From Oegoconia quadripuncta (taxonomy: Eukaryota > Arthropoda > Insecta > Lepidoptera > Autostichidae): DNA of 64,000 nt. Positions within the stretch are counted from its first letter, which is position 1, and every line of letters begins with the position of its first letter. This document shows positions 11,840-60,509 of the stretch, piece by piece. The notes below the pieces were generated by a model. The model worked only from the letters and a program-made list of their open reading frames with translations, had not been told where the DNA came from and made no database searches. The stretch is from the NCBI GenBank assembly GCA_949316235.1, contig OX438745.1, positions 4,407,001-4,471,000 of the forward strand, read 5' to 3'. Made by a program: the position numbers and the translations under genes.

Positions 11840-12700
11840 TGCCCGTTTCGTTATTCTTTACTTACGGTCACCACAGATTACAATAAGTTTACGTAAGGTT
11901 TACGTTATCCTTTAGATTGTAATACTGTCCTTTAGTGTATAAATCATAAAGTACCTACCATAAACGTCGGCCAGATTCTTCTTGGTCATATATAACCTAC
12001 TTCTACTCCATAATCTATAATTTTCATTATATTTTTAACCTGGTGATAGACGTCAAATTGTAATCAAAATTTTCAAAGCCAACAGTTACAACACAAACTT
12101 GTATAGTTTCCATGGTACCTAAACGTAAAATACGATATCGGCTACCATAATTTTTAAGCTGTATCAAAGAAACTACACAAAATACAATGGAAACATAAAA
12201 TAATTAATTGCAGATAACTTTTTATCCTTTGCTCTACAATCTAGATACTAACATGTTTGTAAACAAACAAACAAAGACTGAAACACTAGGAAAAAGGTGA
12301 TATTTTAATTGAGAAGACGAGCCAGCGTTCACGGAATAAAAAAAATCATTAGCCAATGAAATTGTTGTATGTGTACCCATAGGGCTAATTTCAACAAATT
12401 GTACCTAGTGTAGTCGTGAAGAATAAGTGAGAAATTCTTCGATTTTGTCGCAAATGTCGTCATAGGTAATGTGTTGTATATTGGCGATACTATGTGAAGC
12501 TATATGGCACTGTTTGAAAGAGTCTTGTAACACATGCTATAGAAGCTGCTACTGTAATCAATGTTGTGGTGAACTTGATACCCAATGAATTTCTTTACAA
12601 AATTGGAGAAAATTTTGTAAAATGATTAAAACACTGTATGTACTAAACGTTTTTTGTTTCAAAATGTTTCGGACACTCGTTACAACAATCATTTAGTCCC
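11840..12700. other. AT-rich intergenic, nothing recognised
   Basis: No supported ORF, RNA gene or repeat boundary was found in this stretch. Confidence 0.4.
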
Positions 12701-12859
12701 AAATCAAGCAAAGCTAACAAATATAACTAATATTATAAATGCGAAAATTTGTATATGTAGGTATGTTTGTTAAAGATAGTAGAAAACATGTTCGAAATAT
12801 CGAATTTAAAAGAATATATTGCATTTTTACTGTTAATATGGAAACTTAAAATGGATCTT

Positions 12860-13030
12860 ATATATGGCATGGAACTCCCTTCCGGCGTCAGTCTTTCCTG
12901 AATCCTACAACCTTGAGATCTTCAAGAGCAGAGTGAATAGGCATTTACTGGGATCGCGTGCTTCATCTTCGGCCACATCGTCACTATCCATCAGGTGAGC
13001 TTGTGGTCAAACGCGAATCCAGTCAATCAT
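12860..13030 (+). mobile_element. LINE ORF2 C-terminus and 3' end
   Basis: The frame reads [20 protein letters not shown] then RVNRHLLGS, a pattern typical of the C-terminal end of LINE reverse transcriptases in insects. It is followed by 'catcaggtgagcttgtggtc'. Confidence 0.65.
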
Positions 13031-13329
13031 AAAAAGAAAAGCTATTAAAGCTAGTTTTAAATATAATAAAAAAATAAATGAAGAAAGACTATGATATCAT
13101 CGAAATGCACCACATAACTAAATTAACCGCTTTTCATCAAACATAGCTAAGAACTTGTTCCATCTTTTAGTCTATAATATAAAAATACCGCACGCCATCG
13201 GACACACTTACACGCCCACCCACAGTGCCCTTAAACACATAACACCCTTCGTTTTTCGTCGGGGATTACAGTGAGTCCTTTGTACGTTCGCCAATGTTCC
13301 GTATTAATGGAAAGTAGAAGTGGTTATGA

Positions 13330-13600
13330 GTACAAATTGTATGTCCCAGTACAAAAACTTGTTTAGTAAAAGCTTGTACTGTATGGCAGTTAGAATTTAT
13401 AATCATTTACCTAATGAATTCAAAAATAAAATTGGTAAAATGTTTAAAAAGCAGGTGTTTGCATGTTTTCTAGAGAAGGGTTATTATTCAGTATCGGAAT
13501 TTCTGAGCGACATTTATTTTTCTTTTTATTGCATATTTTCTGACATTGAAATTAATTAATTTATCGTTAATAATGAATACTAATTTGACTTGTTTAATAG
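13330..13600 (+). mobile_element. LINE ORF2 C-terminal fragment with 3' end
   Basis: The frame 13320-13559 contains MAVRIYNHLPNEFKN and FLEKGYYSVSEFLSD. The pattern 'iyNhLP...FKk...KgYYsvsEFL' is typical of lepidopteran LINE RT ends. It is truncated at its 5' side and followed by a short 'agaatc' repeat. Confidence 0.7.
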
Positions 13601-13867
13601 AATCAGAATCAGAATCAGAATCATTTATTTGCCATGAATACAGTAAGTCACAGATATTAGTGTTTCAGTAACAAGTTGTGTACAATTGTATTCAACCGGA
13701 AACAGCATGCAAATGTTTAGAATTATACATTTGAAATTGAATTCAATATAGGACTAGATTATCAAATGTCAATTTAATCAATGTGGATTATTTGAACAAT
13801 CTTGACTATAAGACGCCTATGAAAACGACTACGACTACGAACTACGAACGAACGACTACGCCTTTAG

Positions 13868-14206
13868 CCTTTGTTCCCAGTAGTTCTGTTGGACAGTTCT
13901 GTTAGCCGAACTAATGGGAATTTTTGTCTCACTAGTTCTATCAACAGAACAAATGGTACTAGGGATTCCCAGTAGTTCTGTCGAGTTCTAATTTTTCCAC
14001 ACCATTTATTGTATTTATTCCCTAACTAGTGCTGTCCTAGCCTGTCCTGTCCTGTAAAATGGAATGTCATCTGGGAGGTCATCTATATTTAACTGGCGCA
14101 AGCGAGCCGGACGAGTGCGAGCGAAGCGAGCACGGGAGTTTTTGGCACCCCGACATGGATAGGTTAGGCCCACAGAACTGTCCAACAGAACTACTGGGAA
14201 CAAAGT
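13868..14206. mobile_element. MITE with 8-bp target duplication (hAT- or P-like)
   Basis: The terminal inverted repeats share 'ctttgttcccagtagttctg' and continue for about 35 bp. The element is bracketed by the direct repeat GCCTTTAG at 13860-13867 and 14207-14214. An 8-bp duplication is typical of hAT and P elements. There is no transposase ORF. Confidence 0.75.
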
Positions 14207-14221
14207 GCCTTTAGGGTAGGT

Positions 14222-14312
14222 ATGTTTTAAATATACCACATATCCGCTCATCCGTTTCACCGTGATTGAGCAACAAACAAACATCCAAACTTTCGCATTT
14301 ATTATATTTTAA
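14222..14312 (+). repeat. RTE-type LINE 3' fragment
   Basis: It contains 'cgtgattgagcaacaaac' and 'catccaaactttcgcattta', shared with 18160-18245 and 28780-28840. Confidence 0.5.
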
Positions 14313-14319
14313 TTATTCA

Positions 14320-15035
14320 TACAAAATCAATAGCATAATTACAAAATATTTTATAAAATTAATGGAGAGTTTACCCATCTACTTTTTGAATACGGTTCTC
14401 TGTATCACCCTAATATCCAATACATTGTAATTTATCGCTAGAATTTATAACCAATTGGCGCCAAAATGAGTCATGAGAATGACAGGTTCCAAATTCAAAT
14501 GTAAACTATTCTTTTCTATTGTAACAGTCTTCTTTAACAAGAATAGCAGAGAGCAAAGTATACGGACTGTGACATATCAGTTATGTAGCTTTTTATTAGA
14601 CAGCTTATCTGTGCTTAGTGTCAAATAACGGAACGAAATGTAATATTTTCTATTATTTTCTTTTGTATACATTCAACCGAATTATGGCCACCTCCCATAG
14701 CTTCGATTATGTGGTGAACGAAGAGCTTCAAACAGATATTACGTCTGTTACATGTAAATAACAAGAATAACTTACCTACCACATTTCTACGATACCATTT
14801 GTTTTGTGGACCTAGGTAGGTACACAAAACAAATCCTACAAAATGGTTAGTTCCCTTCCTTATCATCTATCTTTAGTAGTATACTGGAGAGTATGAAGGA
14901 AGAGTGCGAAGGCTGATACGTGCTGGAGCGAGTGTGAGGTAGTTTAATCAAGCAGGTAGTGTTACTCGTATCTATCTTTAATCCCTGACTCTTCCTCTCT
15001 TCCTGAGAGTATTGTAAAAGGCTATTTTTAAAGAC
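14320..15035. other. Intergenic, nothing recognised
   Basis: Short open frames on the minus strand (14621-14866, 14847-15065) have no motif or splice context. I see nothing I can support. Confidence 0.4.
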
Positions 15036-15359
15036 TGCGTCATCAACAGCCTTACACGTCCTCACTGTTGGGGCACAGCCTCCTCTGACTGGGAGAGGGA
15101 CGGGTCATAATCCACCACGCGGGCCCAGCGCTGATTGGAGGATTTGTGTGAGAGTAGTGGCCAACTGACAGTTGTAGCCCACTGATTCGACTTAATGACT
15201 GCCTTCAATAAAATATGCCCCGTCCCATAAATGTTAACTACTTATTAAGTCAAGTTCACTCCCGTCTTGTATATGTACTAGCTAAATTTATAAAAGTTAA
15301 CAACGTTATATTATAATCTATCTTTCATGCCTACTTCTTTGAGTTTATCGTAGTATCGT

Positions 15360-15575
15360 ATCTTCTTTGAGTAGCTGTCCTCTGGGAACGGGTCTCCCCT
15401 TGCGAGGGGAGGCAGGGCGGGAGGGGGGACCTGAAGCCGCTTATGCGTTCCCAGATCCTCCCTACTGCCGAAGAAGGTCGCCACGGGGTTTCAGTGGGTA
15501 TCCACATAACCGTCTCGCCGTCCCTCAGGCGAGCGGTACGCTTAAGGCGTTTCCCCGCGAAAAAAAAGGGCGCTT
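15360..15575 (+). repeat. GC-rich repeat related to 5690-5965
   Basis: It shares 'cctactgccgaagaaggtcg' and 'gtttccccgcgaaaaaaa' with the CAP intron copy. Confidence 0.45.
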
Positions 15576-15760
15576 ACGTGGTACCAAATTTAGCAATCGA
15601 ACGCAAGGGAGCTAAAAGGCAACATTAAGCTACGTGGTACGACGACTGGTCTACAAGAATTTAATATTTTTGCCATCGACTCACTAAGATGCATACATAC
15701 ATACATACATACATAGGACTATGATTGTATAATACGTGACGGTATTCTGATTTGTTATAG

Positions 15761-15943
15761 GTCACATTTCGTATCAACCATGCCACCAAACCCCAGAGCT
15801 TTTCGTTCGGGAACAATTCCACTGTTCATGTGGTCACAAAAAAGTCCGGACCGTCCCAGCTCCATTTGAAATTATTTAATGGATTGAAGGAACCAGTTCT
15901 GGGAACGATTGAAAAGCAAGTCTATAAATATGCGACAGCATAG
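15761..15943 (+). CDS. Orphan terminal exon, possible alternative 3' end of the CAP gene
   Basis: A TTTGTTATAG acceptor is followed by an open phase-0 frame of 60 codons ending in TAG at 15941-15943. The peptide starts VTFRINHATKPQSF, has an N-S-T glycosylation sequon (GNNSTVHV) and ends KQVYKYATA. The other two frames close earlier. The exon ending at 8278 also ends in phase 0, so this exon could replace the one at 10660-10737. It could also be the last exon of a separate gene whose other exons I did not find. It lies 95 bp upstream of the first small Cys-rich ORF, on the same strand. It cannot follow a donor inside exon 10660-10737, because the only GT there (at 10734) gives phase 2. Confidence 0.45.
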   Translation, partial: VTFRINHATKPQSFSFGNNSTVHVVTKKSGPSQLHLKLFNGLKEPVLGTIEKQVYKYATA

Positions 15944-16037
15944 GTAGGTGTCTCTTTGAAACTGCTACCCGGAACGTAAGAAAACCGCCTTGAATATAAA
16001 CTGTTTACCTATCTTAGGCTAGTGTGACAAGAACATC

Positions 16038-16184
16038 ATGTGTGCTATTTGCATGCTATGCGACTGCTGTGTCACATTAATCGCATGCCTGAAGAATTGT
16101 TGCTGTTGTATAGGTGGCACTATCTGCAAATTGTGCAAATGCTGTATAAGCTGTTGTAAAAAGAGCGATGACAATGAAAATTAA
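16038..16184 (+). CDS. Small cysteine-rich protein 1 (48 aa)
   Basis: ATG to TAA, 49 codons. 16 of 48 residues are Cys, in CC, CxC and CCCC groups (MCAICMLCDCC at the start, then CCCC, CKLCKCC and CC), interspersed with hydrophobic residues. It ends in an acidic tail (SDDNEN). There is no cleavable signal peptide. The Cys and hydrophobic pattern could mean a membrane-associated S-acylated protein or a metal-binding one; the sequence does not decide. The ATG has A at -3. An acceptor-like 'ctatcttag' lies about 20 bp upstream, so a spliced 5' leader is possible. It heads a cluster with 16306, 18498, 20259, 24949 and 26850. It is the most divergent of the five and lacks their exact core motif. 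Confidence 0.7.
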   Translation: MCAICMLCDCCVTLIACLKNCCCCIGGTICKLCKCCISCCKKSDDNEN

Positions 16185-16305
16185 TCCATTAGCAACAAGA
16201 ATATCTGGATCCCCCTACCTACGTCAAAACCACGGTAAACGTTAAACGCAATCATAGGCTAGTCTAGACAATAACATTGAAACCACACAGTATAACTATT
16301 GCAAA

Positions 16306-16764
16306 ATGTGTCCAATATTAGGCTTGGCGATGCAAATAGTCAGAACTGTACTAGGTTTCTTTAAAGGACTATATACGATGTGTATAGACGCATGTACCAA
16401 AAAGTTTTATTTACCTCCGGGCACCCTGACAGAACAAGACTGTAATGCTCCACCTTCCCCCAACCCGACAGCACCAGGAGCTGTACCTTACCCCCCTCCC
16501 ACTGGCTACCCTCCTGCTGTCGCCCCTCCCACTGGCTACCCTCTTACTGTCGCCCCGCCAACTGGCTACCCTCCCGCTGGCTACCTTCCTGCTGCCGTCC
16601 CGGCTACTGACTACCCTCCCGCTGGCTACTCTCCTGCTGGCTACCTTCCTGCTGCCGTCCCGCCTACTAGCTACCCTCCCGCTGGCTACCCTCCTGCTGG
16701 CTACCCTCCCGCTGGCGTCCCACCTCCTGCTCACCCTCCTGGCTACCATCCTCCTCATCAATGA
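16306..16764 (+). CDS. Pro/Gly/Tyr-repeat protein (152 aa) with Cys-containing hydrophobic N-terminus
   Basis: Residues 1-30 are hydrophobic or amphipathic with Cys at 2, 26 and 30 (MCPILGLAMQIVRTVLGFF first). A spacer is followed, from about residue 50, by degenerate repeats of PPAGY, PPTGY and LPAAVP, ending PPGYHPPHQ. At DNA level the repeats are a coding minisatellite built on 'cctcccgctggctac'-like units. Similar low-complexity P/G/Y tails occur in annexin-type, rhodopsin-type and vesicle-associated proteins, but I cannot name an orthologue. No PPxY WW-binding motif is present. It begins 121 bp after the first Cys-rich ORF on the same strand and shares its MC start and an upstream 'aggctagt' next to an acceptor-like TAG. 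Antisense and frame-shifted frames over it are repeat artefacts. Confidence 0.75.
   Translation: MCPILGLAMQIVRTVLGFFKGLYTMCIDACTKKFYLPPGTLTEQDCNAPPSPNPTAPGAVPYPPPTGYPPAVAPPTGYPLTVAPPTGYPPAGYLPAAVPATDYPPAGYSPAGYLPAAVPPTSYPPAGYPPAGYPPAGVPPPAHPPGYHPPHQ
16497..16745 (+). repeat. Coding minisatellite (15- and 30-bp units)
   Basis: Units such as 'cctcccgctggctac' and 'gtcgcccctcccactggctac' alternate inside the P/G/Y-repeat gene. Length changes in multiples of 15 bp would keep the frame. Confidence 0.75.
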
Positions 16765-16799
16765 AACAATATTTTCTCGTCCATTCGATTCGTGAATGT

Positions 16800-17300
16800 T
16801 TTCCAAAACTAGCCACGGCTTTGCGAGATAGTGAGTACTACACCAGCAACAGAATACAGGATTATGTATGCCTTAGTTATTAAACTATGAAACGTGACTG
16901 CTGATTGAAGAATGTTACGATTTTCTTAACAGCATTCCCCTAGCAGGTGCTACTTTACCAAGTTTTGTAAATTAGGGCCTGTAACAACAAAATCACGTCG
17001 CTAGCACGCAGATAATGATGAATTATATGGACAGGTTATTGTCAAATATTGGGATATGAAAAATAGTGGGAGAGTGGTGGTATACTGCAGTTGGTCGATT
17101 GGTACAAGCTGGGATGTTATGTTATGGGAAGCTGGTAGGTGAGTGATGGTGATGGACCAGGCTAATAATACTTTTGTAACCACGTTAATGTATATTCAAT
17201 GAAATTTAATAAATAATATTTGAAACTTAGATCGACTTTGTTATTTTTCTGTAGCGATAATAAATTTTGGTTATTTTCATAAAAAGAAATTTCAGGTGAA
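16800..17300. other. 3' flank of the P/G/Y-repeat gene, nothing recognised
   Basis: An 'aataaataatatttgaaac' stretch at about 17207 could act as a poly(A) signal for 16306-16764. I see nothing else I can support. Confidence 0.4.
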
Positions 17301-17360
17301 GGAAGGGTTTTCATTAAATCCCCTCTTTACCCGACCACAATACGAAGGAGGGTAAAGATT

Positions 17361-17455
17361 TCAGGTCTCAAGTTAGGTTTATTAATCAACACGTTTACTT
17401 GAGACCGGTCACAAGACTGTTCTCAATATTGAGAATGGTTTATAAATACGGGCTT
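17361..17455. mobile_element. TTA-MITE partial copy
   Basis: A partial copy of the 'ggcccgtattaataaacc' MITE: 'caggtctcaagttaggttta' through 'gaatggtttataaatacggg'. Confidence 0.6.
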
Positions 17456-17501
17456 TACAGTCGGATTTTGTTTCTATTAAAATATTGCTTGCTCGGTCTT
17501 A

Positions 17502-17815
17502 GGGCCGTATTAATAAACCAATCTCAATACAAGTCTTGAGGCTGTATCAACCGTGATGAGTCTTAAGAAGTAGACGCTATCTGAACCTCCGTGCTAATTT
17601 ATAAACCAATCTTGAGATTTACTCAGCTGAGATCACTTCTCAAGTATTCGCTTCAGCGGCGAATGAGTCTTGAGTTTCGTTTATAAATACGCTTGTATTG
17701 AGTGTGCACGTGCTTGTCAGGTCTCAAGTTAGGTTTATTAATCAACACGTTTACTCGAGACCAGTCACAAGACTGTTCTCAATGTTGAGAAGTGTATATT
17801 AATATGGACCTACAA
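17502..17815. mobile_element. TTA-MITE copy
   Basis: It starts 'gggccgtattaataaaccaa' after TTA and runs through the family body ('gatcacttctcaagtattcg', 'cttgagtttcgttta', 'gcacgtgcttgtcaggtctc'). The right end is diverged. Confidence 0.65.
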
Positions 17816-18002
17816 TTCCAACTATTTTGTGAAGATGATAAATAAGGTACAAATTCAAAGCCCTCGCGGTGGTAGGAACGCGTCACTAACGATCGCAATG
17901 AAATTGGATAAAGGCATATAGATTTCCTATTACTACCTGATTTATTTACCTAGTTACATGAAAATAAGAAAGAAATTATAAGAAATTATATGTATAAATA
18001 TT

Positions 18003-18262
18003 ATGTATAGCTTCCCGCCGGCGCCTTCGCCTGCGTGGAATAATAACTTTAGCGCGGTTATGTTAAATTTGTTTATCGCGCCGGAAATACTCACTTTATC
18101 GGGATAAAAAATATCCCATGTTTTAATCCAGGGTATGTTCTACCTATATACCAAATTTCATCCAAATCCGTTCATCCGTTTCGCCGTGATTGAGCAACAA
18201 ACTTACAGATAAATAAATAAACAAACATCCAAACTTTCGCTTTTTTAATATTAGTTAGATTA
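18003..18262 (+). mobile_element. RTE-type LINE 3' fragment
   Basis: It starts 'tatagcttcccgccggcgcc', contains 'ttcatccaaatccgttcatc' and ends 'catccaaactttcgc'. A related copy is at 26086-26284. This is a very common repeat in Lepidoptera. Confidence 0.6.
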
Positions 18263-18497
18263 GATTAGATAAAAAAAAACGCAAGACGAGCCCATCATAG
18301 AGGTGTCACTATTATGTCCTTAGATATTGTCAAAGTGGTCAGAAGTCATTGTCAGTTTGTCATGTTTTCATTATTACTCTCCTGGTTTTTATAATTAAAA
18401 GCAATCCACATCATCTTATTCTCTGTTGCGAACTGATCTCAGTACAAAACATATTCCAAGATGAGCAAAAATCACCATAAAGACACGAGACAGGACA

Positions 18498-18683
18498 ATG
18501 TTCCAAGCTGATTCCATGTGCTGTTGTAATTTCTGTGGTAGCCTAAGGTGTATATTTTGCTTCACATTATGTGCTTATATGTTTCATTTGTGCGGGGTTG
18601 AATGCAATTGCGACTGCAAGCCTTTGAGTCCATGCTGCCAGCACGGCAAGCCCGAGAGATACCAAGAGGATATCGTTTACTGA
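18498..18683 (+). CDS. Small cysteine-rich protein 2 (61 aa, or 55 from the second ATG)
   Basis: ATG at 18498 to TGA. 13 residues are Cys. From the second ATG (18516) the protein begins MCCCNFC like its relatives. It carries the cluster core R-x-[LI]-x-C-x-[ST]-[IL]-C-[AV]-x-[LM]-x-x-[ML]-C-G-[LV]-[DE], here LRCIFCFTLCAYMFHLCGVE, followed by CNCDC. It has a longer hydrophilic tail (HGKPERYQEDIVY) than the others. The first ATG has the better context (A at -3); the second agrees with family length. Upstream there is a TATA-like 'ttataatta' (about 18389) and an arthropod-type TCAGT (about 18438), spaced wider than usual. No signal peptide is visible. Function is unknown. Confidence 0.7.
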   Translation: MFQADSMCCCNFCGSLRCIFCFTLCAYMFHLCGVECNCDCKPLSPCCQHGKPERYQEDIVY

Positions 18684-18984
18684 CAATGAAGAAATAATTC
18701 ATGATGCATCATAAATTTAAAGTCTCAGAACAAGGTAAACAGAACTGAGGGCCTTCCAAATGGGTGGGAGTTGTTTCTACGCGCGAACTATTCGATATTT
18801 TTGTTGTGTAAGCGTAAACGTGTGTCTGTTACTTCACTTCTACAGCGTAATACATATTTTTTCTTGTCAAGAGAGAGAAATAAATAAAGAAGTACCTATA
18901 AAAAGTATTGTTCTTTTGCCCACATAGCCCAGGTTCAAGTGGTAACTGCTAAATATATCTTCTTTTCACCTATCTCGTACATTA

Positions 18985-19130
18985 CCATATCAGCCACAAG
19001 ACTTCCGCTGCCCAACATAGGCCTCCATTTCCAGGGCGAGCCTGCATCCAACGGTTCATTCGGTCATTTGTCGACCTTATAAGTGGACATCCTTGTCGGG
19101 GCATGCCTCAACGGCTATCGTTCTTTAAGT
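18985..19130 (-). mobile_element. LINE ORF fragment
   Basis: A segment with 'cacaagacttccgctgccca' and 'acataggcctccatttccag', related to longer copies at 45125-45480 and 57060-57300. It reads as degraded RT in the antisense direction. Confidence 0.5.
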
Positions 19131-19296
19131 TTGCCCTACCCATAACGTCTACTCTACCGACCTAACTGGCTATTACGATCAATAGAAGGCAAATACCAAC
19201 TGTAGAAAATTCAGTTACTATTTAACGACCATCTCAACCAAGCGCATAGTAGAGGAGATCATCATACCGTGGGATAGGTCCGACGACGTACATGTT

Positions 19297-19394
19297 TTAA
19301 AGTAGTACTGTCTCTTTCTCCATGGAAAAGTACGATGCGACTGCACCACTCCAAAACTGGTTTTAGTTTAGTTTAGTTGGTGTACATCCGAATC
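19297..19394. mobile_element. Long-TIR MITE fragment
   Basis: The 3' part of the family at 37594-37737 (internal 'agtactgtctctttctcc' and right TIR 'gttggtgtacatccgaatcg'). It abuts a truncated SINE-A. Confidence 0.65.
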
Positions 19395-19663
19395 GCCGCC
19401 AACGTAAACAACATAGGGTTTATGGATTGGAAGTCGCGGATTCGATCCCCAGCGGGGTACTACTCAGTTTGGTTGGTAGTACGGCATTTTAAAATGTGAG
19501 CCTGGCTAGCTACCACCATCTTATCGAAGTCTGCTGCTAAACAGTAACGTTAATAGCATTGTTGTTCCGGTTGTCCGGGTGCAGCATGCTTCCACCTTCG
19601 GCCTCATCTTCATTTAACAATCAGGTGTAATTGAGGTCAACAGCTAACCCAGCATAAAAAAAA
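19395..19663 (+). repeat. SINE-A copy, head truncated
   Basis: It starts in the head ('aacgtaaacaacataggg'), keeps 'gattcgatccccagcggggt' and ends in an A-run. Confidence 0.7.
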
Positions 19664-20258
19664 TGCTAAAATTATCCATCTCTGTCCAAATTTCAGCCAG
19701 ATCTGTATGTTCTCAATCCACAACGATATCGCACACAACAAAACAGCTCTGTATAATTATGACGCCGGCTGCATAGAATTATGTAGATGTAAAAACCTAC
19801 TTTCTGAGTAGTTACATAAATCATGCACAGTAGCATAATTTATTTCCTAGTTCCTAGAAAGGAACTTGATAGTACATCTAGATTTCAACTCTTTTGTAAG
19901 TCTAAATGACTGCTGAATGAGAAGCATTACTGCCGTTTGCATTTTATTGGCTACACTCCCATTTGTCGACGGGGGAAGTGGGAAACTTCTTTTCCTACTT
20001 ACACACCCTATTCCTTTCTTTAATTAGTCTGGGGTCCAAGGTAGCAATAGAATCACGTAGGGCACCGTCTACCTTCAGTAGGCGCCGTGTCGAGTACCAC
20101 TGTTGATCCTGGCTTACAGGAGTTACAGTGGGAGGAGTGTGGAGGCGAAATCTGCTGAATGAGAAGTTCGCCTCTTTTTTATGTTTTTGGGGGGATATTA
20201 TGTAAAATTTGAATTTAATAATACACATTAAGAGAATAATCAAAACAAAGAATTACTT

Positions 20259-20390
20259 TTACTCATCAAAATCTTCATTACATGGACAATCAAGGCCACA
20301 CATGTCGACAAGTAAAGCACATATAGAGCAGCAACATAATATCCTACAACACGGGTGTCGAAAACACTGCGGAAAACAAATAACACACAT
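20259..20390 (-). CDS. Small cysteine-rich protein 3 (43 aa)
   Basis: Minus strand, ATG at 20388-20390, TAA at 20259-20261. 12 of 43 residues are Cys. The start is MCVICFPQC, then the core RILCCCSICALLVDMCGLD, then CPC and the acidic tail NEDFDE. It is the closest paralogue of the gene at 24949-25077; both the protein and the upstream DNA are duplicated. The core is hydrophobic enough for membrane contact but short. No signal peptide. A conserved TATA-like block lies at 21024-21056, about 634 bp upstream, so a 5' untranslated exon and an intron are likely. The plus-strand frame across this region is a shadow. Confidence 0.75.
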   Translation of the reverse strand: MCVICFPQCFRHPCCRILCCCSICALLVDMCGLDCPCNEDFDE

Positions 20391-20548
20391 TCCAAATTAC
20401 TTAGTCGTCACAGATTCAAAATAGCTACAACTGCTCACTTTGCGGTTCATATTTTTTCAAATAATGTCTAAGCAGGAACACGTTATTGTCCATTTTCCAA
20501 ATTAGGCTTTAAATGGTATACGGCATTTTGTGCTACTTAACGCAACAT

Positions 20549-20640
20549 AATCTTTATCCCATGTGGAGTGATCACAGATATGACAATAAGGTTTTGAGTG
20601 TTCCAAATCTTCAGGTGTTGTAACCTTTTGTTGTTCACAG
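20549..20640. repeat. Dispersed repeat related to 2223-2500
   Basis: Shares 'ctttatcccat.tgg.gtg.tcacagatat' with the CAP intron copy. Confidence 0.35.
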
Positions 20641-21023
20641 TTCTTCCATCAACTTTGCTTCTAGAAATAGTTTATATTTCGTTGGTCGTTGCAGCTTACC
20701 TACATTGGTATGTAATGCGAATGTGCTACCTATTAGCATAGTATTATCCATCTATTCAAAAACAAGCCCATGAGAAATACAATTAGAATGTTAAGTAGTG
20801 AAATAAATTGGTTTACTTGAAAATGGAAGTAGAGGTTACTGTATCTATTTTACTGTATGGCCATCGTACATATACCACGCGCCTAAGTTATTATTATAGA
20901 AATTCTCGTGGTTCACACCAAAGACTGATAGGTCCTGTGGCTCGTCGTGTATCTAATATGATGATGATGACAACAAATATGAACTTGGACTTGTATAGGA
21001 AATCTTTTGTCCACACAATGTTC

Positions 21024-21056
21024 ACACTTCACTTTTTGGAGGTTTTATGGCTCCAT
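21024..21056 (-). promoter_or_regulatory. Conserved TATA-like block upstream of Cys-rich gene 3
   Basis: On the minus strand it reads GATGGAGCCATAAAACCTCC, an A-run and GTGAAGTG. It is nearly identical to 25731-25764. Each block lies at almost the same distance (634 and 654 bp) from its Cys-rich ORF. CATAAAA could be the TATA element. Promoter function is inferred from conservation and position. Confidence 0.5.
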
Positions 21057-21344
21057 CGTGTTTGACGATGACTTTGGCAGAACCACACAATGTTATAATT
21101 TGTAATTAAATCTCTTGCCAAATAAACTGTCAAGCATGATTTTTTTATGACTCACAGTGGAAGTTCGAAAAAGACGGCGCAAACCATAAGTACTTGAATT
21201 CACAATTATAAAAGTGACCGTTTTTCTCGAGAATATCCGTAGTTAACATTTTCTGCCGAGGCAGCATCGGAACGGGCTGTAACACTTATAATTGGAAGTT
21301 GGGTATCGACGCAAGTTGCGTCCCATAGGTACCAAAGACCCTGC

Positions 21345-21419
21345 TTGTTCATCAGGCAATTTTCCCCTGAGAGGAACAAGCAAGAAACTCGAGGGGTTGC
21401 TCTTTTAAAAACAAGTTTT
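21345..21419 (-). repeat. LINE 3' tail, split by a mariner MITE
   Basis: On the minus strand it carries 'gagtttcttgcttgttcct' and 'aaaattgcctga'. The same LINE continues to the right of the MITE at 21848. Confidence 0.65.
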
Positions 21420-21420
21420 T

Positions 21421-21847
21421 ATATTGGGTCTTTACCTATGAAATTGGAGTTTTTTTTCTTCGTTAATCATATGTACCAATTCCTGCGATTTTCAAAGCTA
21501 TATCCAAATTGTTTTTTATTTGGAAAATGGAATATTATTTCAAGGTTTCACATGAAGTATTTTTTCATTTCTAGGCTAAGTCAAATTGAAAAAAAAAATT
21601 TGAACAGAGCTCTTTTCATGTGCTACCCATAATCATTCTTAGATTCGCTGAAACTTTTATAAAGCGGTTACTTTTAAAAATTAACGCTGCCTATACTTAA
21701 CTTAATGTTATCCGATAATACACACAAAGTTTAGCTAAATTTGGATTTGCCGTTCCCCAAAAAAAATCAAAAATGTTTGTATGGAGAAAACAGTGTTAAT
21801 GAAATTCTTCATACAAAACGCCAATTTCATAGGTAAGGACCTAATAT
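21421..21847. mobile_element. mariner-derived MITE, complete
   Basis: It starts 'atattgggtctttacctatg' and ends 'cataggtaaggacctaatat', near-perfect inverted repeats of about 28 bp with TA at the borders. The TIR resembles that of mori-type mariners in Lepidoptera. There is no transposase ORF. It is inserted in a LINE. Confidence 0.75.
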
Positions 21848-22330
21848 TACAAAAAGGCACAATAATATACAATAATATTTTGTTATTAATTGTGAAACAG
21901 TCTGGCATGCGAACGAACTGGTTATGTCCACGGATAATGATCATCTAAATAGTCTGATATTTTCCTTTTTCTTAATAAGTTTCTGTTTTATAGCATCTTT
22001 AAATTTATTGAAAGAATGATTTTGCATATCAACAGGAACCTTTTGAGAAAGCGTACACATAACCCTTTTAATGATTTACTGAGTTTGCGGAGGCGACTTA
22101 TGTGACCTGCAAGTTTATTTTTTTTTTTTGTATTGATATCATGTTTATGACTATTTTTCTTAAACGATGCAATATTTTTTTTTTACATAAGTATGTATAT
22201 TAAATTTTCAAGAATGTACTGTGAAGACAATATTAGAACATTATATTCTTCAAACTTATCTCTAAGCGATGACATACTGATTAATAGGGTTTTAAAATTG
22301 TCGAGGTAAAGCTGGAAGGGATGATGTCAT
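21848..22330 (-). mobile_element. LINE ORF2 C-terminal remnant
   Basis: Minus-strand peptide segments include RVMCTLSQKVPVDMQNHSF and NKFKDAIKQKLIKK, then 3' sequence with 'cgttcgcatgccaga' as in the plus-strand copy at 29070. It contains frame breaks. Confidence 0.6.
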
Positions 22331-22941
22331 GAGCGCTATACTCACTTTCCACAAGGTTGTTGTTTGCTTGTTTGAAATACATAACATAAAAAAGTAAACG
22401 TATATGTAGCCTATATTTGTTGGAATCTTTATCTCATATTTATTCAAGATAAAAGTTTAACGTTACAGCGTTATCCTTATCACATATATCAGTTACCTTT
22501 ATTAAACACCTTGTTGCCGACGGTGGTTATTCTGTAATTTCTTTTAGGTCTTCTCCACCATACCATAAAGCCGTAAAGACGGCTGCTGGTATTAAATGCT
22601 AGTAAGGCCGAATGTGAAAGCTTTGACTATCCTTGCTGCCAGACAGTAGGTACCTATCAATTCGACGCTGTCTTAATTCCGCATGCGTTCTCTTTGAGCT
22701 TGAAGTACCTACTATGAAAAGAGAGGTGCTATGAGTTTAACCGCTGTGTGTGTCTCTATGTATGTCTGTCTGTGGCACCGAAGCTCTTAAACGGGTGAAC
22801 CAATTTTCGATGCCGTTTTTTTTTGACAGCAGGTTTTCTAACAGTGGTTCTTAGAAATGTTTTCTCAAAATCGGTTCAGCCGTTTTGTTATAATCGCTTT
22901 TTCTCGATGGTTTTCTAAATTTTCAATTTACTAGCCCCCGT

Positions 22942-23059
22942 AGCATGACAGGCGCGATAATCGTTTATGTCGCGCGAGATAATAGATGTGAAAGAGGGAT
23001 AGTTGTATTGGCTCCAAACGAATGAGCAGGACATAAACGATTATCGCGCCTGTCATGCT
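22942..23059. mobile_element. Short MITE with 30-bp perfect TIRs
   Basis: 'agcatgacaggcgcgataat' plus 'cgtttatgtc' is exactly inverted at the right end. The interior is about 58 bp. It sits next to a relative (23064-23398) that was split by SINE insertions. Confidence 0.75.
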
Positions 23060-23063
23060 CCTA

Positions 23064-23398
23064 GTGCAGCCTGCGTAGCATGAAATCGTTTGTCGCACGC
23101 GACGTAGAGTGAGATTGGATTTTTTTTTAATGCACGACGGGTTCGTACTTGACCTCAATCACACCTGATGTTAAATGAAGATGAGGTCGAAGGTGGGAGC
23201 GTACTGGAAACCCCAACAAATTTGGACTGGCTCTCTTATCTCTGACAACCGGAACCGGAACACAACAGTGATATTAACATTGCTGCTTGGCGGTAGATTT
23301 AGATAAGATGGTGGTAGCTAGCCAGGCCTACCACCAACCATTTTCCAACCAACCAATTTGTTGTATATTTCGTGCAAACGAATGAGCAGGACAAATAT
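23064..23398. mobile_element. MITE relative interrupted by SINE-A
   Basis: 23064-23116 and 23349-23398 together match the uninterrupted copy at 59700-59845 read in reverse ('agcatgaaatcgtttgtcgc', then 'ttgtatatttcgtgcaaacg'). SINE-A (23117-23345, minus) sits between them. Confidence 0.65.
23117..23345 (-). repeat. SINE-A truncated copy nested in a MITE
   Basis: A tail of T's then 'ttgacctcaatcacacctga' to 'gatggtggtagctagccagg'. The tRNA head is lost. Confidence 0.7.
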
Positions 23399-23580
23399 TA
23401 TCTCATCATCATCAGTCCGCAAACCTCCCACTGCAGGGATATAGGCCTTCCCTCGTATAATGAGGAAGTATGGGCCATAGTCCACCACGCTGGCCCAATG
23501 AAAGTTGGGGACTTCATATGCCTTTGAATTTTATTTCCCAAGTATGCAGGTTTCCTCACGATGTTTTCCTTCACCGTTCT
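23399..23580 (-). repeat. SINE-D partial copy
   Basis: It contains 'ccactgcagggatataggcc' and 'caggtttcctcacgatgttt' as at 54325-54480. Confidence 0.65.
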
Positions 23581-23845
23581 ATATTATCTAGCGCGACATA
23601 AACGCAGTGCACCCTGCTCTGCGTTTATGTCGCGCTGGACCACGAATACAATAATGTACTGACTCTCCTACTGGTAGGAATGTGAATACCAAAATGTCCT
23701 GATTTTCCTACAACAGATGAAAAATCGCCCCTGTCATGTTACGATAGCTGGTTCCATTTGCGATCTTTTTAAATAGTATAAAACAAAGTCGCTTCTGCGT
23801 CTGTCTGTTTGTGCACTTAGTTATTCTTAGTTTTCATTGACTTTA

Positions 23846-24171
23846 GGCCCGTATTAATAAATCAATCTCAATACAAGTCTTGAGTCTGTATCAACCGAGA
23901 TGCGTTTGAAGCAGTCGACGCTTTCTCAAGCTTCGTGCAAATTTATAAACCAATCTTGAGGTCTATTCAGCTGAGATCACTTCTCAAGTATTCGCCTCAG
24001 CGGCGAATGAATGATAGTCTTGAGTTTCGTTTATTAATACCTCTCAAGTGAGTACTGCTTGAGTATGCACGTGCTTTTCAGGTCTCAAGTAAGGTTTATT
24101 AATCGACACTTTTACATGAGACCAGTCACAAGACTGTTCTCAATCTTGAGAATGGTTTATTAATACGGGCC
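23846..24171. mobile_element. TTA-MITE, complete copy
   Basis: 326 bp, with TIR 'ggcccgtattaataaatcaa' against 'ttgagaatggtttattaata' then 'cgggcc', flanked on both sides by TTA. The TTA duplication suggests a PIF/Harbinger relative. There is no transposase. Confidence 0.8.
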
Positions 24172-24250
24172 TTAGAGAATTTATTCCAAAAGGTTTATAT
24201 GTATAAAAAAGTGATAGTTTGTGTTTTATTACGGCCTGAAACTAGTTAAA

Positions 24251-24298
24251 TATTATCAAGCTAGCAAGATCTCAACGTTCTGTCGAGATCTTGCTAGC
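24251..24298. repeat. Short perfect hairpin
   Basis: 'gctagcaagatctc' is exactly inverted within about 45 bp, with a loop of about 10 bp. Too short to assign as a microRNA. Confidence 0.5.
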
Positions 24299-24948
24299 CA
24301 TATTATTGTCAGTCATATTTGTATCGAGTCGAGACACACGAGTCGAAAATCAAACCATTTAACCCCTTACGAAAAACGTTAGCGGAAGGTGTTGTGTTGT
24401 CTGTGTGTGTGAGTCGTTGTCCAGACCGTGGTCCGATTTGAGTGCAGTTTTTTTATATCAATGTCTAAAGGTTCTTAGCTGTGTTTCATGAAAATCGGTT
24501 CAGCCGTTTCGAAAATATTTAGGCTTATAATAACACAGTTTTTTTTTGTTTATTTTGATGATATAGTACTATACGAGTATTATAGTCATAGTTAAAGAGG
24601 GTTTCACAGTAATAATAATTGACATGTAATTATTTTTTTATTTATATTTTGACAAACATTTACTTTTTTTCTACTTTTCAATTAATACTTATTCACAAAG
24701 GGATCCTTTTAAGAGGTCCAACAGAAGGTAAAAAAAGAACAATTATGGTGTCACTTTGTTACATCTCCTATAACAAAATCAATGTACTACTAAAACTATA
24801 GAAGCTTTATTATTCTGACCAAGAATAAGTATTGAAATTACTTTAAAAAGAATTAGAAATTGGAAGAAAGTTTCGCAGAAACATTTTGTCGGACTTCTTT
24901 GGTTATCTGTCAATATATATGTATACATACTTACGTAGAACATCACTT

Positions 24949-25077
24949 TTACTCATCCGCATCATTACAATCACAATCTAAGCCGCACATATTGAAAAGT
25001 AAAGCACATATAGAGCAACAACATAATATCCTACAACAAGGGTCGCTGCAACACCGCGGCACACAACAACAACACAT
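24949..25077 (-). CDS. Small cysteine-rich protein 4 (42 aa)
   Basis: Minus strand, ATG at 25075-25077, TAA at 24949-24951. 15 of 42 residues are Cys. The start MCCCCVPRCC is followed by the core RILCCCSICALLFNMCGLD, then CDC and the acidic NDADE. The core is identical to that of protein 3 except at two positions, while the N-termini differ more. Similarity to the other locus continues upstream (25129-25160 against 20432-20460) and at the TATA-like block 25731-25764, so a segment was duplicated. No signal peptide. Membrane association through palmitoylated Cys, or metal binding, are both possible; nothing here decides. Confidence 0.75.
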   Translation of the reverse strand: MCCCCVPRCCSDPCCRILCCCSICALLFNMCGLDCDCNDADE

Positions 25078-25244
25078 TTCACACTACAACAACAAAACGA
25101 GACGTTGCAGATGTAAAACAGTTTCATCAGGTCACTTTGTAGGTCATAATTATTTCAAATTTCAACTGTTATCCACTTTGGAGTCTTACGTCAATTCTTC
25201 AGCGATTACTGTACCAATGAGAGAGAAGCTAAATCGATTAATCG

Positions 25245-25535
25245 CTTCAAAATGTTTCCAGTCGCTCTGTTGTTCACATTCCTTTCAACAACTTGCTGGA
25301 ATAGCTTCAGTCCACTTTGTTATTGTCATTTCGGATTTGTGGTTACAGTTTCAAATTCTTTAACAATTACTGCACTAACAAGAACGACGCTAAATGAACA
25401 AGTTGCTTATAAATTGTTGCACCAGTCGCTTTGTTCTCCGCAATCCTTTCAACGATTTGTTGCTTGTCGCTTAGCTTCAGTTGTTTTGTTGTTTCCGTTG
25501 GGAATTTGTCGTTACAGCTTCCAAATAATAATAAC
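25245..25535. repeat. Imperfect tandem duplication upstream of Cys-rich gene 4
   Basis: Two units of about 140 bp share 'ccagtcgctctgttgttc/ccagtcgctttgttctcc', 'cctttcaacaa/cctttcaacga' and 'gtttcaaattctttaac/gcttccaaataataa'. They lie between the ORF and the TATA-like block, in a probable 5' intron or leader. Confidence 0.55.
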
Positions 25536-25730
25536 GTCGAGTCACCTCGCTATCCACATTACTAATTAGGTTCTTGTGCCTATAACTTTTAAGACAAATT
25601 TACAATGAAGTGTGTGTGGTTGCGAGAAGTGATAGACTTAGCTAATGAATGAAGTTTAGTTTCATATTATTTGGGCTAAGTATTTAATTTCATTGGATAC
25701 CATACACTATACAACTAATTTTGTAGTCTT

Positions 25731-25764
25731 CACTTCACTTTTTTGGAGGTTTTATGGCTCCATC
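25731..25764 (-). promoter_or_regulatory. Conserved TATA-like block upstream of Cys-rich gene 4
   Basis: Nearly identical to 21024-21056. On the minus strand it reads GATGGAGCCATAAAACCTCC followed by an A-run and GTGAAGTGAAG. It lies 654 bp upstream of the ORF. Confidence 0.5.
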
Positions 25765-26085
25765 TTTTATAATTCACACTCGTTTGAAATTTTATAGATA
25801 TTATTTACATCTGCCAAATTGACAAGTATATTTTTTATAACAACGGTGATCCAAAAAGATGTGTCAAGTCGTAGTGCTTCTATCAGGTTTAACACGCATT
25901 AACTGTGATACGTCCGGACAAAGACATACACACGCACAACGGGGTCAAACACAAGACACCTGTCTGTTTTCATCGGGGGTTAAAAAGACATTGAAATATT
26001 CAAAAATATGCACAATTTTAGCATGTAAGTTCCCACTTACATTACTTACGAGGTAGGCATATTGTTGGTAGTGATTGATTTATAT

Positions 26086-26284
26086 ACGACTAGCTTTCCG
26101 CCCGCGACTTCGTCCGCGTGGAAGATTTCATCAATATCGATTCAACAAAAAAATTTGCCTGGTTAATCTAGGTCCTAATCTGTCAACTAACCAAATTTCA
26201 TCCAACGTCCAGCGGTACAGACGTGAAGAGGTAACAAACATACATACAGACATACACACAAACTTTCGCATTTATAATATTACT
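26086..26284 (+). mobile_element. RTE-type LINE 3' end
   Basis: It starts 'actagctttccgcccgcgac' and ends 'aactttcgcatttataatat', the typical lepidopteran repeat end. Confidence 0.65.
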
Positions 26285-26339
26285 TGGAATTGTGAAGTCT
26301 ATGTCGGTAGTACTATTTTATTACATGATAATTGACAAG

Positions 26340-26820
26340 TATACAATAAATGGAAAGAAATATATATTTTCTTTGTATATTCTGGCAAAATGTAGAGCAA
26401 TGTCGTAGAGATTGAAATTTTTTTCTCAATGAATTCATATTAATCAGAAAATATGTAGGTATCGTAAATAGGTGAATAGATATCTACAGGTATATAGTGT
26501 ACATTGTAATATCGTTACACAGAATTACCCTGTCGCCTACCTAATACCAAATCAAACAAATGGAGTCGTGACGCTATGGTGAATAGTACTGTTATGCGTA
26601 CTTAGCTCTATTTGAAATACATTTTTCTACTAAATACTTCAAAACAAATTGACCAATATTTATCTAAATCGAAAAAGAACGCGACGGTACCTAGTATTGA
26701 CTAGGTACTTGTTTAAATTCGGAACAGCTACGGAAATACTCAAGATCTACCAAAATTTAAAGTAAGAACGTCACGGTGTTCCACAAATTCAAGAACAGTG
26801 GAGCAGCTGTCAGATTAGCG
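26340..26820. other. AT-rich spacer, nothing recognised
   Basis: The 5' flank of Cys-rich gene 5. A T-run at 26828-26840 sits just before the ORF. No repeat or ORF can be supported here. Confidence 0.4.
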
Positions 26821-26849
26821 GAGCTTGTTTTTTTTTTTTTTGGACAAAC

Positions 26850-26990
26850 ATGTGCTGTTCGTGTAGCTGTGATTGTGGATCATGTGGAAAAATTCTAAGG
26901 TGCCTGTTGTGTGTTACACTATGCGTGTTTCTTCTGAAGATGTGCGGCGTGGAAGTCGATGATGGCTGCTGCGGCGGCGAAGGGGACTAA
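26850..26990 (+). CDS. Small cysteine-rich protein 5 (46 aa)
   Basis: ATG at 26850 to TAA at 26988-26990. 12 of 46 residues are Cys: MCCSCSCDCGSCG, then the core LRCLLCVTLCVFLLKMCGVE, then an acidic and glycine-rich tail with CC (DDGCCGGEGD). The core aligns without gaps to proteins 2, 3 and 4. The ATG context (A at -3) is good. The frame is not long enough for usual ORF filters, so automated annotation would probably miss it. It is on the opposite strand to its two nearest paralogues. No signal peptide. Function is unknown. Confidence 0.75.
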   Translation: MCCSCSCDCGSCGKILRCLLCVTLCVFLLKMCGVEVDDGCCGGEGD

Positions 26991-26994
26991 CATA

Positions 26995-27480
26995 GCGCTT
27001 TACTCGATAGGTACAGTCGCGGGATGAAAAGGTTCGTCAGTTTTCAAATAATTGAATTTGAATTTAGCAAGCCCCGTTCCAAACTAAGTAACACACCACA
27101 CTGTTATATAGAAAACGACAGGGTTTATATTTAACCGAACTAGTGTTCCTTGACTATGAGCTAATAGCTGACCTAAAACATGTCAAATGGTGACGTGAGC
27201 TAGGAAAGGTCGGTGAATAAATAAATATGTCACAACGCACAAACGTCATATTAGCGTTCAATGTCAAATCAACAACTTGTCTACAAGCAAAAGTCAACTT
27301 TAAGATGACGAACCATTTCATTCCGTGACTGTGCTATAAAAATAGGTAATAAGTATACCCATTTAAGACCAAAATAGTTGTATACAAAATGTTATTAGTG
27401 TGATGGTGGGTTAATTTGCAACAAATACCTATCAAGTTTGAGAAAATGTATCAATCAATGTAATTTATTGTGAACTAACT
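26995..27480. other. 3' flank of Cys-rich gene 5, nothing recognised
   Basis: Unique-looking AT-rich sequence. I see no supported gene or repeat. Confidence 0.4.
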
Positions 27481-27484
27481 TTAA

Positions 27485-27628
27485 GGGCCGTATTAATAAA
27501 CCGTTCTCAAGATTGAGATGACTTTATGTTGACGCCTGAGAATCTGTTCCATATTAAAACAGTATAAAAAAAATTGTATTGAGACTGAGACGCGATCTCA
27601 ATCTCAAGACCGATTTATTAATACAGCC
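27485..27628. mobile_element. TTA-MITE, short internally deleted copy
   Basis: 'gggccgtattaataaaccgt' at the left and 'gaccgatttattaatacagc' at the right, with most of the interior lost. Confidence 0.6.
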
Positions 27629-33266: not shown

Positions 33267-43310
<10,044 letters not shown>

Positions 43311-55000: not shown

Positions 55001-58000
55001 AAGCCTATAGTTGCTTACTGTGGAACCAGATGGCGCTGTGTATGTGTATGTCTAAGGATATTTATTATTAATATTCATTATCCTAAAAATTGACTGCGTG
55101 TCTTCATTATTGAACTTATAATAAATTTAACTTATAAATAAATAAAAATTTGGGATACTTACACCAATCATCCAGTCCCAAATTAAGCAAAGATTGTTCT
55201 ATGGATACTATGTAGATAACGTATAAACATAAATAAATATTTGTATAAACATTCTAGACTCGGGAATAAATGTTCATATTCATCATACAAACATTTACCC
55301 CTCCCGGAATTCGAACCCGCAAACGTTGGTTTCGCTGACAGGGTCACTATCCACTACATCAATCTGTCGTCATTCATTACGTACATTATACTATATATAA
55401 TAATCTAAATTAATTTCTTTTAACGTTTATAAAATGAAAACGAATCTACGTTTATTTAATAAGAACATTGTTGTATTATTATGAGACTTTGTACAATCGA
55501 TGGCATGATGACCACAATTAATACCAGTGTAAGCTGGCCTCACCCAGCTACCGTAACAGTTAACACAGCGAGGTCTGCCTATACTGGAAGTTTTACCGTC
55601 GTCGTGCGGCTGCATGTACACTACAAATTGCACAGCTGCTAGAGAGTTATTTATATTATCCATAGGCCATAAATTATTATAAGCAAAAGCATTTAAAACA
55701 TATTTTTCATTAGATATTGGTGCATAGCTATATAAAATTAGCTATGCATAGTATTGTAGTAAGTTGTAGCAAGTACATACTATAATAGGATTGTAGTAAG
55801 TACAGTTAACATCAAAATTGTAGCTGTCAAGGTGGTCAAAACACTTAAGAAAAATTGACACTAGATGAAAGTAATCTTATTTTTTATACTAATATTACAA
55901 TGTTAATAGCATTGTTGTGTTCCGGTTGTCAGAGATAAGATAGCCTGTCCCCCAAATGTGTTGGGGTTTCCGGGTCAGTACGCTTCCACCTTCGACCTCA
56001 TCATCACTTAACATCAGGTGTGATTGAGGTCAAGTACGAACCTGTTGTACATAAAAAAAAATTATGAACTTTTCTCTGCTTGATGAAGGTCTACGGATAC
56101 CTTACACCAATTAATTTTTCTTTGATGCCAAGATATTCTTACCAACCTATTAGCCAATATATGTTCTCGAAATTTTCGAAACACGATGCGAAAAATTTTA
56201 CCTGCGGAGAATGTTTGCCAAAAAACTATTATATTACCAATATGTTTCTTGTGTTATGTTTTGACTGGTTTGTTGTCTTAAAATAAATAATATTTTTGAT
56301 GCAATCTGGACACAATGGCAAATATGTCCTTTTATTGCTTAGATTTAGAAAATTTTATAAAGTAACTCCTTATTCATCATATTCATAAGTAAAGCTTTCT
56401 TTCCTTGTAGTAAAGTTACCCTTGTTAGAAAACACTGTCATGTTAGATGAAAAGAAACTGATTTCAACAAAATACTAAACATGACAATATAAACACAATT
56501 TATAGAACAGACACTCAATTTCCTTATTTAGAATTATTTTATAGAAATTTCTTTGACCCTTTTTATGAAAAGGAGGACTTAAGTATTTTGAGATCAACAA
56601 ATGCTGCAGATTAACACTCGTATGTATTCTTATTTTTCAGGCCGGACAGCTGAATCAATAAAAGTAGGTACTCACATTTCTACGTGGCTCAGAAACGATT
56701 GCGAAAGATGAGATAAAAGAATACTCGCTAACAAACGCTGACGTCAAGATCGACAAAAGGCTCCTACTTACGAACAGAATATTCCTAAAAACAGCGGCGT
56801 TAGTCATACTTTTAGGCTTAGGCTTCCAGTTATGTGGTTTCAATGCGGTATCATTTTATCTCCAGACCATATTGGAATCTACACACACAAATATTAAACC
56901 AGAAATTGCTTCGGTCATAATTGGTTGCATACAGTTGATTGCGAGCCTGTGTACACCGTTTCTGACTGATAGGTTTGGGAGGAAACCTGTTTTGACATCC
57001 ACTCTAGTTGGGACCGGTATAGGGATGGTAAGTTATTGAAATTCTAATCAACATTATACAGCCAATGTATTACATAGGCCTCCCTCATAGCTTTCCAGAG
57101 CGACCAGTAGGAAGCGGCCTACATTCACATTGTGGTTGGATGTCCCTGGCTGCGCTTGCCGGTGCGTGGTCTCAACTCTAGAATATTTCACTCTCGAACT
57201 GCCCACTGCCATTTCAACTCACTAATCCGCTGGGCTGTCGGTGACTTTCATTCTTCTACGGATCTCTTTGGTCTAATGCATACTACAAAACTGGTAGGTA
57301 TATTGTACCGTGTGTCTTGGTCAGAATCTTAATTGGTCACTGTCGGCTGAACAAATACCTAAATGTGCTATGGAGGCTGATATTCCAATGTATGGAAGTA
57401 GCAGACTAACCGGCACAGATCCTTAGTAAAGCCAGGTCGTTCTGCGAAGCATGCGAACACCCCAAGACATTTCTCCACTGTGCTAGGCCACCGTAGATCT
57501 TGTATGCATGGAGTAAATGCGAAAACATGAGCCCACCAACAAAACTAGAATGAAAAGATGTTTGTTTCCGTCTGTGTGTCTTTCCCCGGAAAGTCAACTA
57601 TTAATACTTTCACTGGCGATGAACTTTCGCCAGCTTCAATCGACGCATCGACCGAAGGCGCTGTGGAGATAAGATTCCTATGGAGTCACGTGATTTCGTG
57701 TCGTATTACACTCACTTATAAAAAAACATCTAGAGTGAATTTTGAGGAGAGTTTCCCGCGTTCCTCACACACATACACACAGAGACTTTATAGTACGCTA
57801 TTTCGCCTAATGAGGTCGCGATCTGAGTGTGCACATACATCAACACCCCTCAGTCTTGTGTATGTGTAAGTGAGTGATGCCACCGACTCTTAGCGTCTAG
57901 GCCACCTGTAAGCGGACTGTCAAATAACAGGTATCTTTGTTCCATTTGATGCGACAATCTGTCCACAGGCGGGGTGTGAGTTTCTATGGAAATTACATGT

Positions 58001-60050: not shown

Positions 60051-60287
60051 TATCGTTAAAGAATCTACAATTATTGTAACATTAAGAATAGAGCGCTATA
60101 CATTACTCGAACCGATAAAGATCAATATTACGACTAATGTACTATTGACTATATCGTTGAAATTGAGACTACTATTGTGATAATAGCTATTGTAATAATT
60201 GTGTAATGATGGAATCTCGTAATAATAATTAAATTATAGTAATAAAATTCTAATATATTGTCTTCTATATTTTATTTAAATTTTTTC

Positions 60288-60509
60288 GTTCCATCACTAA
60301 TTATTTGCCGGTTAGCTCGTTTGCGTTCCATCACTAATTATTTGCCGATTAGCTCGCTTGCGTTCCATCACTAATTATTTGCCGGTTAGCTCGCTTGCGT
60401 TCCATCTCTAATTATTTGCCGATTAGCTCGCTTGCGTTCCATCACTAATTATTTGCCGGTTAGCTCGCTTGCGTTCGACCACTAATCATTTGTCGATCAG
60501 CTCGCTTGC
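60288..60509. repeat. 37-bp minisatellite, six units
   Basis: Unit 'gttccatcactaattatttg' followed by 'ccggttagctcgcttgc'. The first five units alternate 'ccggttag' and 'ccgattag', so the amplified unit may be a 74-bp dimer. The last unit is diverged. Confidence 0.92.

Follow-up and report, generated by a model that had tools for sequence, protein, structure and literature searches.

Does the cluster of very small cysteine-rich open reading frames (ORFs) in a 64-kb stretch of the Oegoconia quadripuncta genome (Lepidoptera; GenBank assembly GCA_949316235.1, contig OX438745.1, positions 4,407,001 to 4,471,000, referred to below as the window) constitute one gene family, and what might its products do? 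An earlier note on this DNA had described five such ORFs as a local family with a shared core, next to a protein rich in proline, glycine and tyrosine (P/G/Y) repeats. As judged by sequence comparison, four of the clustered ORFs form one family, and two others resemble them in composition alone; these two and the repeat protein are neighbours of the family only.

A core shared by four small ORFs

Translation of the window in all six frames contains four matches to the strict pattern of the 19-residue core, in ORFs 18498, 20259, 24949 and 26850 (each named by its lowest coordinate). A relaxed pattern returns the same four matches and none in any of the controls: 20 mononucleotide shuffles of the whole window, 1500 dinucleotide shuffles of positions 12001-27500, and, for every one of the four ORFs, 100,000 shuffles of its residues. 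The ungapped core that the earlier note had read in these four is thereby confirmed. In ungapped 19-residue comparisons, the six pairs among the four agree in residue class at 12-17 of 19 positions, and were equalled by 0, 0, 1, 0, 1, and 0 of 300 shuffles. As the ungapped core is shared far beyond chance and within 8.5 kb, the four ORFs derive from a common ancestor.

Two members are encoded on the plus strand, 18498-18683 (61 aa, 21% Cys, core at 18546-18602) and 26850-26990 (46 aa, 26% Cys, core at 26898-26954), and two on the minus strand, 20259-20390 (43 aa, 28% Cys, core at 20289-20345) and 24949-25077 (42 aa, 36% Cys, core at 24976-25032). ORF 18498 begins MFQADSMC, and its second in-frame ATG (18516) coincides with the MC, giving a 55-aa form.

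A scan of the entire window for Cys-rich ORFs (ATG start, at least 35 aa, at least 20% Cys) yielded six, all located within 12469-26990 and all with MC inside the first ten residues. The 200 dinucleotide shuffles of the window produced two such ORFs between them, both lacking MC; in the reversed window there was none at the same thresholds. The five ORFs listed previously (16038+, 18498+, 20259-, 24949-, and 26850+; 42-61 aa, 21-36% Cys) are all present at their coordinates, and four of the five start with MC, 18498 being the exception; a sixth, 12469-12588 on the plus strand (39 aa, 26% Cys, beginning MCC, without the core), had been overlooked. Cys residues number 10-16 in the six ORFs (39-61 aa), and each ORF has several spacings of the CC, CxC, and CxxC kinds. 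In the tandem-repeat scan of the window no small ORF falls within an array, and both Cys codons (TGT and TGC) are used in all six, which excludes a microsatellite read as protein. An RNA-gene origin was likewise discarded (no tRNA, no Rfam match at the gathering score). So was a transposon origin, the profile search of the window (below) having turned up no convincing additional copy.

Membership of the family is narrower than the shared composition. ORF 16038-16184 (plus strand, 48 aa, 33% Cys) also lacks the core and has no detectable kinship to the four. When 16038 and 12469 were each compared with the core ORFs and then with one another (nine comparisons), 74-287 of 300 shuffles were as good; for the N-terminal part of the repeat protein (16306) against the others, the figure was 70-300 of 300 in six comparisons. 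As this is no better than composition, all three were rejected as members; MAFFT will place 16038 and 12469 in one alignment with the core ORFs if instructed to, which does not rescue the grouping. The local gene family proposed earlier is thus retained for 18498, 20259, 24949, and 26850, but not for 16038, which by sequence is no member. A profile search of the stop-to-stop ORFs of at least 15 residues in the window revealed no further convincing core copy. A candidate seventh member at 34725-34808 on the minus strand (E 0.0075) comprises 28 residues without Met, lacks the end of the core, and was attributed to chance.

Coding evidence and selection

The coding evidence for the core family is moderate, and the four ORFs very probably represent a real coding family. 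None of the four reading frames is broken, and a purine occupies position -3 of the first ATG in each. The sole coding indel between 20259 and 24949 measures 3 nt, while a 10-nt gap sits just upstream of the ATG.

Selection was assessed with Nei-Gojobori counts, where p denotes random placement of the same differences giving as few amino-acid changes. For 24949 and 20259, the pair that the earlier note had singled out for dN/dS, the whole ORF is not significant (42 codons, dN 0.19, dS 0.47, 26 differences, p 0.083) and the core alone is marginal (dN 0.07, dS 0.44, p 0.047). Subtracting the core changes of this pair from its total of 17.3 amino-acid changes leaves 14.3 for the 23 of 42 codons outside the core, so that the constraint is centred on the core. 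The best of the seven tests was obtained for the core of 18498 and 26850 (pS 0.78, pN 0.25, p 0.004); the core of 20259 and 26850 gave p 0.024. Three of the seven are below 0.05, one of which survives Bonferroni correction. From these statistics we infer purifying selection, strongest in the core.

Anatomy of the core and predicted S-acylation

By analogy with sprouty-2, the products are tentatively interpreted, in the likeliest reading but at rather less than an even chance, as cytosolic microproteins whose core helix is S-acylated to the membrane on its Cys face. Granted a real coding family, an S-acylated membrane anchor comes close to an even chance. The core, R-x-[LI]-x-C-x-[ST]-[IL]-C-[AV]-x-[LM]-x-x-[ML]-C-G, would form a short helix, one face of which carries the three invariant Cys and the opposite face the [ST] and [N/D/H/K] positions. 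This helix would dip into the membrane, where DHHC enzymes would attach fatty acids to the Cys face and to some of the N-terminal Cys, which are less conserved. The C-terminal tail would remain in the cytosol, and the four products would act as small lipid-anchored membrane microproteins.

The predicted modification fits the anatomy of the ORFs, namely putatively one-faced Cys in a short hydrophobic stretch. With the core taken as a helix, the invariant Cys lie at angles of 140, 180, and 160 degrees, the [ST] position at 340 and the [N/D/H/K] position at 320; of the 560 three-position subsets, 2.1% are as one-sided. The maximum 19-residue hydropathy in the four ORFs is 1.7-2.2. In AlphaFold2 models, the only helix of at least four residues falls on the core (residues 13-31 in 24949, residues 15-32 in 26850). 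The positions of the N-terminal Cys outside the core vary even between the closest copies. Such variation is easier to reconcile with a lipid anchor, for which the number of Cys counts for more than where they stand, than with a metal cluster of fixed geometry. Between 8 and 26 residues follow the core (8 in 24949, 9 in 20259, 11 in 26850, and 26 in 18498). The cytosolic location is predicted from the lack of a signal peptide evident by eye.

Comparable Cys-rich patches are found in larger proteins. Sprouty-2 is described as carrying S-acylated Cys on a hydrophobic face of a predicted helix (PMC7657471), and both sprouty-2 and SNAP25 have a DHHC17-binding motif. With the domains of sprouty-2, SNAP25, and cysteine-string protein the core family would share dense Cys in a hydrophobic, helix-prone patch, the one-faced Cys being the sprouty-2 feature in that account (PMC7657471). 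In all three proteins the Cys domain is part of a larger chain, whereas the core family is free-standing, at 42-61 aa. Cysteine-string protein has a J domain.

Several observations weigh against the S-acylated anchor. The test of one-sidedness was chosen after the core had been seen. The AlphaFold2 models, built from four sequences, are poor (mean pLDDT 61 for 24949 and 58 for 26850). Hydropathy leans on Cys: with Cys removed, the whole-ORF averages fall between -0.39 and 0.34. Owing to the polar residue at core position 14, the uninterrupted hydrophobic stretch amounts to about 12 residues, shorter than an ordinary transmembrane helix requires, and the absence of a signal peptide is a visual judgement only. 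The selection tests are also uneven. Over the full 42 codons 24949 and 20259 are compatible with neutrality, and core comparisons gave p 0.50 (24949 and 18498), 0.45 (20259 and 18498), and 0.069 (24949 and 26850). For the more distant pairs, synonymous positions approach saturation, which, together with a null that permits one hit per site, makes the constraint figures rough.

The core family may also work in a manner similar to the proteins with a cysteine-rich transmembrane module (CYSTM; Pfam PF12734). The CYSTM profile, searched up to E 10, matched neither the five ORFs of the earlier note nor 12469 nor the 16306 protein. CYSTM proteins carry their module at the C-terminus as a tail anchor (PMC10217909, PMC8049917), and some of them, the products of the Arabidopsis PCM genes, are encoded in tandem gene clusters (PMC8049917). 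The core ORFs resemble them in that the proteins are very small and contain a hydrophobic module rich in Cys. Unlike CYSTM proteins as so described, the core family has 8-26 residues beyond the core and so no C-terminal tail anchor. Because the profile does not match and the module is not C-terminal, the core family is not CYSTM on either count. Some CYSTM proteins hold the Cys-rich membrane module and a P/G/Y-rich part in one chain. That multiply S-acylated, lineage-restricted 'Cys-face' helix microproteins of a hitherto undescribed kind form, with the 16306 protein, a two-gene counterpart of such a chain would be a long shot.

Alternative explanations

Metal-binding, metallothionein-like microproteins, in which CC, CxC, and CxxC would hold zinc or copper as thiolates, are unlikely. 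Metallothioneins are similar to the core ORFs in size, Cys content, and CC and CxC motifs, and the multiple spacings of this kind in small, multicopy ORFs with 10-16 Cys in 39-61 aa would agree with such a role. The conserved part of the family is, however, a core of aliphatic and aromatic residues, a feature generally absent from metallothioneins; the Cys outside it shift between the closest copies, and no Pfam metallothionein profile matches up to E 10. With an aliphatic core as the conserved part and no profile match, metal binding fits less well.

It is quite unlikely that the ORFs encode a disulphide cross-linked structural protein of a terminally differentiated cell (e.g., sperm tail, scale, or eggshell), perhaps deposited with the P/G/Y-repeat protein. 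Known analogues would be the Drosophila Mst84D-type proteins and the vertebrate keratin-associated proteins. Such a role would be in line with the very high Cys content, the small clustered genes with diverged flanks, and the repeat protein nearby, and Mst84D-type sperm proteins are likewise small, clustered, Cys-rich, and from an insect. These sperm proteins consist of C-G-P repeats, though, which are absent from the core ORFs, and the part shared by the four is a hydrophobic core rather than a cross-linking repeat.

The ORFs might also not encode functional proteins at all, but represent duplicates in decay, or else a regulatory or transposon sequence that is conserved and open by chance. 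The region is rich in repeats, four of the seven constraint tests are not significant, and non-coding blocks upstream of 20259 and 24949 are conserved as well (see below). Nevertheless, one core kept in four intact frames and never recovered in 1500 shuffles, a sole coding indel of 3 nt between the closest copies, and the p value of 0.004 for the core of 18498 and 26850 make this decidedly unlikely.

Finally, secreted or N-in/C-out peptides, in which the Arg-flanked hydrophobic core would serve as signal anchor or signal sequence and export the Cys-containing tail, would agree with the positive-inside rule (in all four, the core is preceded by Arg and followed by Asp or Glu) but are very unlikely, as the hydrophobic stretch begins only at residue 17-18 (12 in the short form of 18498), is interrupted by N/D/H/K at core position 14, and leaves just 8-11 residues beyond the core in three of the four.

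Upstream conservation and arrangement of the copies

Two non-coding upstream stretches are common to 20259 and 24949, with order and orientation kept. The proximal stretch (about 60 bp, 74% identity, next to the ATG) is located on the minus strand at 20403-20462 for 20259 (-13 to -72 from the ATG) and at 25100-25160 for 24949 (-23 to -83). The distal block, about 170 columns with 65% identity on the same strand, spans 21025-21195 (-635 to -805) and 25731-25879 (-654 to -802), respectively, and includes a 25-bp word identical in the two, lying 667 bp upstream of 20259 (21033-21057) and 687 bp upstream of 24949 (25740-25764). With up to three mismatches allowed, a 24-bp version of this word occurs nowhere else in the window. 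Since exact words of at least 25 bp were also found in 10 of 484 random 1200-nt pairs from the same repeat-rich window, the length of the word alone is not decisive; its position and orientation add weight. The word may represent a promoter or a 5' untranslated exon. It had no match in viral contigs.

ORFs 24949 (minus) and 26850 (plus) are arranged head-to-head, with 1.8 kb between their ATGs, which puts the distal block of 24949, on the opposite strand, some 1.0-1.1 kb upstream of 26850 as well. A control region common to both is possible. The upstream comparison revealed no separate copy of the block for 18498 or 26850. Similarity of the region upstream of 18498 to those of 26850 and 24949 (66-68% over about 150 bp) was set aside, as it coincides with the dispersed repeats D4/D13, not with the genes. 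TATA-, initiator-, and splice-like words were listed around the ORFs, and no gene model stood out. Between the small genes lie two repeat copies, 17342-17811 and 23843-24172, which are 6.3 kb apart, 79-89% identical to reference copies, and likely of transposon origin.

Neighbouring genes and other features of the window

The P/G/Y-repeat protein described beside the cluster is indeed found at 16306-16764 on the plus strand (152 aa), with a hydrophobic N-terminal part beginning MC. Its repeats correspond to a 15/60-bp tandem array, and it is tied to the core family by position only. Read by eye, TAGGCTAGT precedes both 16038 and 16306, followed shortly by GACAA and AACAT; this stretch might be a start region common to the two.

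Elsewhere, the clearest conventional gene, as judged by Pfam, is a predicted sugar transporter with exons at 56668-57036 and 58946-59311 on the plus strand (Sugar_tr, E 2.7e-13 and 4.3e-15); four of the 103 scanned ORFs match this family. Other Pfam families among the ORFs of the window include MFS_1 (two members) and weak single matches to Cons_hypoth698, TFCD_C, and UNC-93. A weak zf-RVT match at 41255-41635 on the minus strand (E 0.034, under its cut-off) is perhaps a retrotransposon remnant, and a tandem array with a 37-bp unit (six copies, 93% matches) occupies 60287-60509.

Searches for relatives

The collections searched are not known to hold lepidopteran genomes, and there was no insect positive control, so that absences say little. 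Pfam, searched up to E 10, gave nothing above chance for the six Cys-rich ORFs and the 16306 protein; the best stray match was Stevor for 20259 (E 0.85), far below its cut-off. In a large protein set queried with 24949, the six-ORF alignment, and residues 1-58 of 16306, no candidate shares three words. None of the 121 pattern stretches in viral contigs or the 67 in GTDB genomes was confirmed, nor were any of the 23 stretches for the N-terminal part of 16306 in viral contigs. PDB gave no match, or chance-level similarity at E 0.97, and PHROGs nothing for all seven ORFs. Among the literature matches listed, none was recognised by its title and the opening of its abstract as an account of the core family. 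The term 'orphan' would mean here only the lack of a match in Pfam, PDB, PHROGs, the large protein set, viral contigs, and GTDB genomes, and is unproven, given the content of these collections.

Implications

Intracellular Cys-rich proteins of less than 60 aa are often under the cut-offs of gene prediction, and families such as the one described here can therefore be missing from annotation. If translated and S-acylated, the core ORFs would constitute a minimal natural substrate of DHHC enzymes and a new microprotein family, and with four diverged copies at one locus, the residue requirements would be easy to test.

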